In this document: in pieces, positions 36,558 to 41,837 of the stretch
Position numbering within the stretch: position 1 is the first letter of the stretch
How the letters are laid out: each line of letters starts with the position of its first letter
NCBI RefSeq assembly: GCF_016907915.1
Contig: NZ_JAFBCW010000026.1
Span: forward strand, 1 to 41,837
Length of the DNA stretch: 41,837 nt
Source: Desulforadius tongensis
GTDB taxonomy: Bacteria > Bacillota > Desulfotomaculia > Desulfotomaculales > Desulfohalotomaculaceae
Direction: 5' to 3'
Program-made: the position numbers and the translations under genes
The notes under the pieces: model-generated
What the model was told of the DNA's origin: nothing
Database searches by the model: none
Seen by the model: the letters and a program-made list of their open reading frames with translations, nothing else

Positions 36558-38489
36558 TCATCTAGTTATTGTCTTTAAATTTTCTGCAGAGGCATATAAC
36601 TCCTCAGAAGAGGCAGCAATTTGCTCTGCCACCGCCGCCTGGGAATTGGCCAATTCTCTCACCTGCTCCGATTCTTTTGTCAGTTGAACTATCAGCTGAT
36701 TCAACTCCGCTTGTATTGCGGCCACATTCCGGCGGTAATCTTCTACATTTTTAAGCTTCTCGCTGGTATCCTCAGACAGCTTGCCCACTTCTTCCGCTAC
36801 CACGGCAAACCCCCTACCGGCTTCACCTGCCCGGGCTGCTTCAATTTGAGCATTAAAACTGAGCAGCTTGGTCTGCCCGGTAATTTCCGAAATACTGTTG
36901 GTAATTTCTGTGAAATAATCAAAGATTTTTATTATCGAAGCCAGTTTATTCCGCAATTGTTTTATTTCTTCTGCTTGACTTTCCACGTAATTAAGCAGTT
37001 TAGTACTCATTTCGGCATTACTTTGATTACCTGTGGCTATTTCATCAATAACAGTTATTAAGGACTCGGTATTCTCCAGCAGCACTTTATTTGTTTTCTC
37101 GGCCTCATCGCGCATTTTTTGTGCCCATTCTTTTTGATAGATAATGCAGCCCCCCGGGGTGTTTTCACCGTTGTACACCGCCATCGCCCGTTCCCGGCAG
37201 GTTCTGTACCCACAGGCCCTGCAGTTCAGTTCATCCTCTTTGGTAAACTTACCGTCCTGCTCCAATATCGCTTTAATTTCACTTTCAGAGGGGATTTTTT
37301 TATGACAAAGTCTGTTCTCCCATGTTCTGGTAAATTTATTGCTGCTGATCAGTTCTTCCACCGTCTGCACCCACTTTTGAAACTCCGGGGCCTGCACAGT
37401 ATTCTTGACCAGTACCTTATAATCTTTATACTTTCTAAGCAAGCCCTGCCGCTGGGCCTTTTCAAAACGTTTTTGGGTGTAGCCGGCTACAATACCTTTG
37501 GCTTCTAACAGGTCACATTCAACCCCCATGGCTTTACCTACAATACACCCCTCGCAGTACAAAATATCAATCAGGGTAGGATAGCCCTTTAAACTCCCGG
37601 CTTTTTTTCGCCCGGCCATATGGTTTAAAAACTCAATAGTTCTGCTTTCACCTTCTATAATTAAAACATCACTGCCAATGGGATTTATCTGCAGGGCATC
37701 GGAAAACAACTCCAGTGTCTTTGTCAGGCCGCCGGAAATAGGGAAACCGGCACCGTAAAAGGCCTGTATACCGTCAAATTCTGTTTCGTTTAAAACAGCG
37801 GGTGTAATTTTCCTCTCATCTATCAGTTCTATTAATTCTTCAAAGGTTAACACTTCATCAAAGAGCCCCAGCTTTTCATCCAACAATTCTGATTTTTTGG
37901 CAACACAGGGGCTGGCACCAACAATACTAATACTGCCTTGGTTCCAATGCCTGGCCAGCACTGCCTGGGCTGCCATGGGGCTTAATATTGGTGCAAATTC
38001 ATCAATTAGTTCCGGTGTATGTTTTTCAATATAGTTCATCAATGACGGGCATGGGCTGGTAATTACATGGGTATTTTCTTTTCCTTTTGTTTTTATCTGC
38101 TTATCAATATAGTCCAAGTAAACCTTGGTAACCACATCGGCTCCAAAAGCAGATTCGTACACCAGTTTAAATCCCAATTTTTTCAGTGCAGCACAAAACT
38201 GTTCCGGGGTACAGTGATATTTTTTCTCCGCCACTATCACATATGAAGGGGCCAGAACAATGGCACAGCGGTCTCTTTTTAAAAGCTGCTTAACATTTTC
38301 AACACCTTTGATATATTTTTTAGCTCCTTTTGAACAAACAGTTGTACACAGACCGCAGTTAATACAGCTTTCTTTAATAACTTCCCCTACACCATTATTA
38401 AAGGCAATGGATTTGGTTTCACACACCTGCAAACAGGCAGAACATTCCTTACATTTTTCTTTTTCTGTATAGACAATACCATCAATCAC
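36558..38489 (-). CDS. [FeFe]-hydrogenase-like sensor fused to a chemoreceptor signalling domain
   Basis: A soluble 643-aa fusion. Numbered from the GTG at 38489, two [4Fe-4S] ferredoxin motifs use Cys 13/16/19/23 and 42/45/48/52. The hydrogenase H-cluster domain follows (about 75-385), with TSPCPS (Cys147), [10 protein letters not shown] (Cys195) and YCEGC (Cys312/315), so all four cluster ligands exist. The usual TSCCP is changed to TSPCP, losing the proton-transfer Cys. A CRAC-x4-C...GGC [4Fe-4S] module (about 423-448) comes next, then a chemoreceptor signalling hairpin with tip [20 protein letters not shown]. No membrane helix. This suggests sensing of H2 or redox, not H2 turnover. The frame is open to 38561 with a weak ribosome site, and the longer start is possible. 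Confidence 0.88.
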
Positions 38490-38644
38490 TAAAAACCCCG
38501 TCCTCCCCCATTGAAATTCAAAATTTTGAGTTATTTTAGTCATTTTAAAATTAAACACCAATCTCCAAATTCCTACAAAGTTTCTATAAAAACTTTTTAT
38601 TCCTACTATTATACCCTGCTATTCACGGGTTATATAAATTTAAA

Positions 38645-38689: not shown

Positions 38690-40558
38690 CTACTTATACT
38701 CGCTATTAATTTGAAACCGAGCAGCCATTTGCTGCAGTTCATTTGTCCACTGGGTTAACGTTTCTACCGCAGAAGCAATTTCCTGCATGGCCGCGGTGGA
38801 TTCTTCTGTTATTCCGGTAGCATTTTGAACGGCAGCGGAAACCTGCTTGGTTCCCGAGGCAATTTCTTCAATTTCATCTGCCAGTATTTTAACTTTGTCA
38901 ATTATCTGTTCAAATGATTGGGCTGTATTATTCACTATTTCTACACCTGATTGCACTTTGTTTACAGTTTCTCTCATCACCTCCCCGGCTTTATTACTTT
39001 CTGCTTGAACACTGCTCAGCAGTTCCTGAATCTCTGTGGTAGATTTGGAAGACATTTCAGCCAGTTTTCTAACTTCCTCCGCCACCACTGCAAAGCCTTT
39101 ACCGTGTTCCCCCGCCCTGGCCGCTTCAATGGCAGCATTCAAGGCCAATAAATTTGTTTGGTCTGCAATTTGAGTGATACTGGAAACAATCTCACCGATT
39201 TTAGCGGTGGTTTTATTTAACCCTTGTATTACAGCGGCAGTGTTGTAGGTTGACCGGCTGATATCGTTCATCTGCTCATGCACTACAGCCATATTTTGCT
39301 GGCCCTTTTCAGCTTCACCAACCGTTTCATCTGCCGATTCCTTTATCGTTTGACTGTTTTGTGCCACCTGTTCCATGGTGGTGGCCACTTCCGTCATAAT
39401 AGACGAAATTTCACTGGCATTGGCAGAAGTCTCCTCGGTGTTGGCAGAAAGCTCTTCCGCAAAAGCCGATAAATTATTGGACTTTTCATTAATACTAAAG
39501 GCCATTTCTTCCAGGTTGGCTTTCATTTTATTCAATGCACTGCTGAGAACACCTATTTCGTCCTTTGAGCTGTTATTCAGCCGTTCTACAGTTAAATTCC
39601 CCTGGGCGATCTCTTCAGCAAATTCAGTTGCTGCCTGTACCTGGCCGGCAATTTTTCTGCTAAAGATAACAGAAATAACAACAGCCACAAGAATGGCAAT
39701 AACCACAACCGTGATGGAAGTCAACCAAAAACGTTCTTTTATCTTCTGAAGGGATGATATATCCTCCTCAATACCCAGCATGCCGATAACTTTTTCACCG
39801 GTGGCATTTTTTAAAGGAATGTAAACCTTCATATAATTCTGTTCCACAGTCCGGACAGTTTCTCCGTTAGATACCCGCTGATAAATGGACTTATCTTCCA
39901 AGGACCGACCGATTTTATCTTTATTTTCTTCGCTGGAAGTACTGATAAGCACATCCCGGTTGTATAAAGCCACGCCAGCGGAAACAGACTCTTCAATTTC
40001 ATTTAAAAAGCGGCTGTCAAGCCCCAATTGAAAAGTACCGATAACCCTTCCCTCTGATTTAACGGGTACCAAAGCCCGCATCGCCAGGCCGCTGCTGCCG
40101 AACTCCAAACCTGCAGCCTCTTTCCCCTGTAGGGATGCCCGGATAGAATCATTGCTGCTCTTGTCATCACCGAACTTGCCGGGGTTGTGGGCCCTAAAAA
40201 ATACTACCCCTTTTTTATCCCCAAATTCAAAAACATCTACCTGGTGTTCTCTTTTTAACCGCTCATAAATTGGTTTGGCCTTTTCCGCTAACAAAGCCCG
40301 GTCATTATTTTTAAATGCTGATGTCAGTTCTTGTTCTTGAACGTACCACCGGGCCAAATTCAGCAATTCATTCGATTTTTCTTCCAATTGACGGTTAGCA
40401 GCTGAAACAGCCCTTTCCAGCTGGGCATTAAGTTCCCGTTCTAACCCGGACTCGGCCTTTTGGTACAGGATAGAAAAAATTATTATCGATGGAATAGCTG
40501 ACATTAATACCATTAAAAACAGGAGTTTATACTTTAGTGATAATCTGTTGTAAGCCAT
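38690..40558 (-). CDS. Methyl-accepting chemotaxis protein with large extracellular Cache-type domain
   Basis: The 622-aa receptor has a first membrane helix (residues 11-31), an extracellular sensor (about 32-278, with the Cache-like [20 protein letters not shown] and [15 protein letters not shown], and [12 protein letters not shown]), a second helix (about 280-301), a HAMP domain (to about 355) and a signalling hairpin with [22 protein letters not shown]. Ligand unknown. GGGGGTTG precedes the ATG. It lies upstream of the hydrogenase-chemoreceptor fusion on the same strand, with a terminator between, so they are neighbours rather than a tight operon. Confidence 0.92.
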
Positions 40559-40697: not shown

Positions 40698-40782
40698 GTT
40701 TCAATCCTCACCGGGGTGGTTACCCCGGTGCTACCGGCCCGCTTCCACCAGATGAAACCACAGACACTTTGTTTCAATCCTC
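40698..40782 (+). CRISPR. Relic CRISPR: one full repeat, one spacer, one truncated repeat
   Basis: A 37-base repeat (40698-40734) begins GTTTCAATCC, contains the hairpin CACCGGGG/CCCCGGTG (40709-40716 with 40723-40730) and ends CTAC. A 36-base spacer (40735-40770) follows, then a second repeat that keeps only its first 12 bases (GTTTCAATCCTC, 40771-40782) before running into the cas3 remnant. The period of 73 is normal for CRISPR arrays and the opening sequence is common in type I and III repeats. With one complete copy the exact repeat boundary is approximate. Confidence 0.75.
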
Positions 40783-41213
40783 TATTGTATTTATCTGTAT
40801 CAAAGTGGGCTTCGGTATCCAAGCAGTCAGCATCCACCAGCGCAGAAAACAGCATGCGTAAAAATAATTCCAATGAAGTGTAAGATTTCTTGATGTGTTC
40901 CGGCAAATTCAGCTTGTATGCAGGCTTTATATTAGGGATATTTTCGCATACCAGCTGCAGCAATTTTTTAACTGCACTGTCATCTTTCTTTTTATTAATT
41001 AAGTCTACCAGTTCATATCGATCTGGCAGACCACCGTGCTGGGCAATTATTGGAAAAGACAATATTTCTAGAAACGGCAGAGAAAATACCGCCCCGGCAC
41101 TTTTACCCCAAATGATTGTGCAAACTGCAATGTAAGTTCAGCCACTGCTATTAAGCGGTCCAATAGCGAGTGTCTTTTCCCTGACTATTTTCTGAATGCG
41201 CTATATATTCAAT
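40783..41213 (-). pseudogene. cas3: cas3 HD-domain remnant, several lesions
   Basis: Read on the minus strand from 41213, the sequence gives IEYIAHSENSQGK, shifts frame by two bases, then reads RHSLLDRLIAVAELTLQF. A stop follows, then in another frame LEILSFPIIAQHGGLPDRYE and later LFLRMLFSALVDADCLDTEA. These match successive parts of the Cas3 HD nuclease of type I CRISPR systems. The damage includes an ATT where the start codon should be (after GAGGTGAT), the frameshift, loss of the central segment that carries the HD metal motif, and truncation after DKYNR by the CRISPR repeat. The helicase half is gone. It is clearly non-functional. Confidence 0.8.
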
Positions 41214-41723
41214 AGTTATCACCTCACTATATCTATTTTTAACATTATAACAAAAGCTGAAGACAACAGGTTGTCTGAATGCATAATTAAAATCTTTAAT
41301 ATTAAAATCAGAGCATTGTTTAACAAGGTTAGATTAAATAAGTTGTTAAAATCATTAACCCCCGTCCTCTCTCATATGATATAGTCTAGTAAAGCGGAAA
41401 GGCGTAATTTTTTTATGGACATTTTATATCTAATGATCAAACTATTTATATAGGCTGTCGCACTAACAATTTCGATTATTCCAGGCATAATTGTTGGTTA
41501 TTTGGGCGAACTTTAAGCAACCTTGCAGAAGATTTTTGCTGTCTTTCCTTGTAGGTTTATGATTGGGAAGTTAACTGTACTGATTGTTTTGGTTATGGAA
41601 GGATACAGTGATGGAGAGAAAAATACACCAAAAGAAGCAGTTACAGGAAAGAAACTGCTAACGTTGAAAGAAAAACTGATATTGATAAAGAAAGTATGAA
41701 ATTGGAAGAATAGAATGTAAAAA
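41214..41723. other. AT-rich debris between cas3 relic and IS end
   Basis: No intact gene. On the plus strand near 41415 a frame starting MDILYLMIKLFI is broken by a TAG and then continues as a hydrophobic stretch (AVALTISIIPGIIVGYLGEL), perhaps a decayed small membrane protein. A 34-codon frame near 41596 has no ribosome site. The whole stretch looks like decaying DNA. Confidence 0.4.
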
Positions 41724-41837
41724 GTTTTGTGTAAATGGTAATAATTACAAATAAAGGAGATGACCATTTATGCAAAACTTGCAGGACAAAACCATAAGAG
41801 AACTGACCAAGGATTGCCGTACCGTAGACGACGTACA
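41724..41837 (+). mobile_element. Left end of a probable IS256-family insertion sequence (runs off window)
   Basis: GTTTTGTGTAAATGG at 41724-41738 resembles the terminal inverted repeats of IS256-family elements (often containing TGTGTAAA), about 45 bases before a transposase-like start codon. The right end and target duplication lie outside the window. Confidence 0.45.
41770..41837 (+). CDS. Partial transposase, probably IS256 (Mutator-like) family
   Basis: Only the first 22 codons are present (MQNLQDKTIRELTKDCRTVD...), preceded by AAGGAGAT at a suitable distance. The opening resembles IS256-type transposases of Clostridia, which use a DDE active site further on. The fragment is too short to see catalytic residues, and the gene is cut by the window edge. 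Confidence 0.5.
   Translation, partial: MQNLQDKTIRELTKDCRTVDDV

Follow-up and report, generated by a model that had tools for sequence, protein, structure and literature searches.

A non-functional type I-C CRISPR-Cas remnant in Desulforadius tongensis, probably left by a deletion that joined a broken cas3 to the far end of its array

Close to one end of a contig of Desulforadius tongensis, a broken piece of cas3 runs straight into the interior of a CRISPR repeat, beyond which lie one spacer and one complete repeat. We read this feature as the relic of a type I-C CRISPR-Cas locus, no longer functional, in which a deletion joined the broken cas3 to the far end of the array, and put the probability of this reading at about 93%. 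The window (the whole stretch of DNA analyzed, 41,837 nucleotides) is the entire contig C26 of a draft genome of 2.58 Mb in 61 contigs, 99.6% complete. Read along the minus strand, the cas3 remnant comes first, followed by the partial repeat, the spacer, the full repeat, about 140 bases and then a chemoreceptor gene:

41172-41213, minus strand: first piece of cas3 (N-terminus), in a third frame (tblastn, frame 2), without a start codon at the first-Met position
41101-41181, minus strand: second piece of cas3, in another frame (tblastn, frame 1)
40783-41101, minus strand: third piece of cas3, an open frame that runs to the repeat (tblastn of intact Cas3c, frame 3)
40783-41213, minus strand: the cas3 remnant as a whole (Cas3c profile match and alignment to intact Cas3 proteins)
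40771-40782, minus strand: partial repeat, joined to cas3 and consisting of the repeat's last 12 nt
40735-40770, minus strand: spacer of 36 nt, giving a repeat-to-repeat spacing of 73 nt
40698-40734, minus strand: full CRISPR repeat of 37 nt, type I-C class, with a perfect 7-bp stem
38690-40558: chemoreceptor gene with dCache_3 and MCPsignal domains

Farther along, at 36558-38561 on the minus strand, a 667-residue protein combines an iron-only hydrogenase large-subunit domain and Fe-S domains with a C-terminal chemotaxis signalling domain; it may be a soluble sensor of redox state or hydrogen.

The open frame next to the repeat had been called a cas3 pseudogene by a sequence-only reading of this DNA, which was to be given up if profile searches found no Cas3 homology. 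They did find it: the best PADLOC models for the frame are Cas3c (43.8 bits, E 2.5e-12; also E 1.5e-10), with general Cas3 models matching more weakly. In tblastn, the intact Cas3 proteins of 11 loci match the region with up to 82.8 bits, compared with a best score of 25.8 bits when the remnant was shuffled 100 times. Matches to the cas3 open frame occur in 7 of 41 genomes (relatives plus the genome itself, which is one of the seven), neither of the genus's two other genomes being among them. Across the phylum, 68 of 398 genomes, again counting its own, have matches to the cas3 part, and the best relatives are 38-45% identical.

How the gene is broken can be read from its alignment to intact relatives. 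The clearest alignment, to the protein of locus L045, consists of three collinear pieces in three frames, with residues 13-32 at 41228-41172, 30-56 at 41181-41101 and 92-199 at 41101-40799. Within the first piece (41172-41213), residues 1-13 of the L042 protein align as well as residues 13-32 of the L045 protein, and the place of the first Met of L042 reads Ile; the start codon is gone. A frameshift lies at about 41172-41181. At about 41101 some 35 codons are missing, among them those of the HD motif that all 11 intact relatives have (scored as HD or HA). The third piece keeps the DAD..DTE motif, but the HH motif shared by all 11 intact relatives reads QH in it, the first His being lost. The remnant then stops at the repeat, before the helicase. 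The loss of start codon, reading frame and HD motif, all claimed from the sequence at the outset, is thus visible in these alignments.

The repeat was compared with those of nine other loci (L019, L020, L025 with one exact copy, L039 and L041-L045) and is identical to them at 25-30 of 37 positions. The ends are common to all, and all seven stem pairs are kept even though the bases differ, the changes being paired. No real 37-nt repeat could be extracted from L038 or L015-L018 (top count 1 or 2), and these were omitted from the repeat counts. The 12-mer of the partial repeat has two copies in the window, both at the remnant, where about 0.005 would be expected. Because the 37-nt repeat has a single copy in the genome at up to three mismatches, it is not a dispersed element there; a dispersed, non-CRISPR repeat was the second finding that had been named as fatal to a CRISPR reading.

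Inspection of the loci of the best relatives shows the arrangement from which the remnant seems to derive. The intact operons have the order cas3, cas5, cas8c, cas7, cas4, cas1, then the array, and the remnant is oriented in the same way, cas3 first and array last. Six of the eight best-relative loci (L039, L041, L042, L043, L044 and L045, from L038-L045) have arrays built of exact 37-nt repeats belonging to one class. A similar array sits at the contig edge of L038, and the short contig of L040 is without one. At L042 the six proteins were checked and are Cas3c, Cas5c, Cas8c, Cas7c, Cas4c and Cas1c, and at L019 (Geobacillus proteiniphilus) Cas5c, Cas8c and Cas7c adjoin a repeat of the same class; gene names in the remaining loci come from position and first residues. 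L015 and L016, two loci from the same taxonomic order with weaker Cas3 matches, have a shorter repeat. With the intact I-C operons (L019 and L041-L045) the remnant shares Cas3c homology, the 3' end of the 37-nt repeat, the 7-bp stem, gene order and orientation. Its repeat spacing of 73 nt also compares with 70-75 nt in the intact arrays, save for single values of 69 and intervals spanning at least two units. It differs from them in having a broken cas3 and in lacking all that separates the first part of cas3 from the last repeat-spacer unit. The I-C kind of Cas3, together with a repeat of the class and spacing found in I-C operons, points to a type I-C locus as the source.

What remains is not a working I-C system. 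Cas3 lies in three frames, without HD motif or helicase, and searches for Cas8c (TIGR01863) and Cas5c (TIGR01876) gave no match in the genome, both recovering the control, Deinobacterium chartae. From the place in cas3 equivalent to the junction, six intact operons extend 7.0-7.5 kb to the first repeat and 7.5-9.9 kb to the last exact repeat, some of the arrays running beyond the stretch measured. The structure would follow from a single deletion of about 7-10 kb that started within cas3 and ended within a repeat of the array. Lost with it would have been the rest of cas3, cas5c, cas8c, cas7, cas4, cas1, cas2 (presumed in the relatives' loci), the leader, and every spacer except the last. Intact I-C loci place their array after the cas genes, so what survives here should be the oldest, leader-distal unit, and the full repeat at 40698-40734 is probably the leader-distal terminal repeat.

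The deletion possibly went through a few bases shared by cas3 and the repeat. At the place of the large junction, six of the 11 intact Cas3 proteins (L015, L016, L018, L040, L043 and L044) have Arg-Gly, codons for which could have up to 5 nt in common with the repeat. At the site of the HD deletion, the same bases close one piece in one frame and open the next in another. Both cas3 junctions could fit deletion between short shared sequences; the best relatives, at 38-45% identity, are too distant to give the ancestral bases. Loss of the start codon, the frameshift and the HD-motif deletion could each have come before or after the large deletion. The core of the sequence-only reading, a collapsed locus in which a deletion fused the inside of a repeat to cas3, is borne out by the alignment, the 12-nt partial repeat and the intact I-C operons. 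It can be sharpened to subtype I-C, a deletion of about 7-10 kb and a surviving unit that is probably leader-distal.

A search for other arrays with the same repeat and for an intact type I system, proposed with that reading, gave no further copy of the repeat and two complete type I-B systems of different kinds. Both genomic copies of Cas1 belong to these systems, one in each, and both systems have other repeats. The one on C13 (L012) comprises Cas6, Cas8b, Cas7b, Cas5b, Cas3b, a Cas4-Cas1 fusion and Cas2, with an array; the one on C8 (L013) comprises Cas8b, Cas7b, Cas5b, Cas3b, Cas4b, Cas1b and Cas2b, also with an array, in a list drawn up without a search for Cas6. Loss of the I-C locus was presumably tolerated because these two systems remain. 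Just past the C8 array, L013:17503-18078 (plus strand) has a partial-length match to the MADS defence model mad2 (E 7.4e-25).

The proposed comparison with related strains yielded no complete locus. No strain with an intact locus at this site was found. The repeat is missing from both other genomes of the genus; at up to three mismatches it is found in one of 113 genomes of the order, its own. In G002, the region with a homolog of the neighbouring 667-residue gene has no GATTGAAAC repeat, and its neighbourhood differs.

Could a nearby insertion sequence have removed the locus? An IS-like end about 500 bases from the cas3 start had been noted earlier as a possible mark of the loss:

41709-41837, plus strand: left end of an insertion sequence of the Mutator/IS256-like kind, truncated where the contig stops; a neighbour, outside the remnant

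The element is real. The sequence common to other copies starts at 41709, five other contigs contain parts of it, and a related copy (L062) has a 219-residue open frame matching PF00872 (Mutator-family transposase). Removal by this element, through an adjacent deletion or recombination between copies, could draw on the further, partly truncated copies, and an insertion sequence might have been at the junction and later departed tracelessly. Its suggested role is nevertheless unsupported and such an origin quite improbable: the insertion sequence lies 5' of the cas3 remnant, opposite the large cas3-to-repeat junction, and since neither cas3 junction contains one, it does not explain the loss. 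Copies of Mutator-family elements, some truncated, are present in C11, C47, C31, C4 and C2 of the same genome as well as at the window end; C26, C31 and C47 terminate in such matches, which suggests that the assembly breaks at these copies.

Another possibility is that the lone unit is a functional mini-CRISPR of the CreA/CreR kind, whose crRNA-like RNA would guide Cascade to a host promoter. One spacer and 1.3 repeats adjoining cas3 recall such an arrangement. The partial repeat at 40771-40782 also retains the 11 nt that would form the type I-C 5' handle, 11 nt being the length given for the I-C crRNA handle in an excerpt of PMC3727216. In a folding computation the full repeat can form its hairpin, and the whole unit has a z of -1.4. 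What makes such a function very improbable is that the genome has neither Cas8c nor Cas5c, and so no I-C Cascade, its remaining systems being I-B with other repeats. Moreover, the available part of PMC9458426 describes CreA repeats as degenerated, whereas the full repeat here has an unbroken stem. It is still harder to credit that the handle-spacer-repeat unit is transcribed from the old cas3 promoter and acts as a crRNA-like regulator through an outside Cascade (from a plasmid or phage) or the resident I-B systems. With TTC as the PAM, the seed has no exact match in the genome and three places with one mismatch, none of these on the window contig; for the genome, simple arithmetic predicts about three, and a backward control gave 0. 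Within the window the seed has four matches, itself included, against 2.7 expected.

That the cas3 piece and the array end come from separate places and were brought together by the assembly is most improbable. The assembly is indeed a draft of 61 contigs, but the repeat and the cas3 piece are found nowhere else in the genome, leaving no second place to borrow from; the two sides of the junction probably share no more than a few bases, and the other cas3 lesions fit decay. A chance open frame beside a chance repeat, for which one could cite that the 144-residue frame has no Pfam match at E 0.01, can be set aside as negligible, since profile and pairwise matches lie far above the shuffles and Cas3 and the repeat independently point to the same I-C lineage.

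That the spacer is a fossil record of a past invader stays a supposition, for searches of phages, plasmids, viral contigs and 113 genomes of the order turned up no convincing protospacer. By blastn it has three weak matches to phages (E 5, none covering 80%) and one to plasmids (E 4). The exact 36-mer is absent from the viral contigs searched, and two degenerate back-translated patterns gave no matches. At up to three mismatches the only match among the 113 genomes is the window itself, and no self-target was found. One viral contig, L046, has a 20-nt seed match and was rejected as a source, only 23 of the 36 spacer bases matching.

Losses of this type have been reported elsewhere. In Haloquadratum walsbyi HBSQ001, according to an extract of PMC3119063, nearly the whole CRISPR locus was deleted, cas genes and most of the array together, leaving a few units; the leader and first repeat were kept there and a sister strain has the full locus, whereas here the leader is gone, a cas3 piece is kept and no intact sister was found. 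The H. walsbyi remnant is termed vestigial in a passage of PMC3404096. Among evolved lysogens of Pseudomonas aeruginosa PA14, one deletion at the CRISPR2 locus starts in cas3 and takes in the array; from what is given in part of PMC11406979, it is much larger (60.5 kb) and arose in the laboratory under self-targeting, while here no self-target is apparent. Isolated cas loci and arrays are discussed as possible remnants in a section of PMC5294841, and degenerate CRISPR systems in Bifidobacterium are mentioned in one of PMC4521832. The D. tongensis locus is a clean further example of this already known kind of CRISPR-Cas loss. It gives a base-level picture of one route, a multiply broken cas3 joined to the interior of a repeat, and adds an example to the turnover of redundant immune systems without changing any concept.

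A degenerate pattern of the repeat, run across genome contigs, matched seven stretches. The matches include two Geobacillus arrays, the short two-repeat stretch L025, and L024, in which one repeat at a contig end adjoins cas5-8-7-like open frames (named by eye). Lone 37-nt repeats of the same class occur at L021:7487-7523, L022:1059-1095 and L023:2855-2891, on contigs labelled Binatia, Desulfotomaculum and Acidobacteriota. In the stretches covered around them there is no second copy (at least 22 of 37 positions) except an overlapping reverse match in L023, and these single repeats are candidates for other remnants or ectopic repeats.
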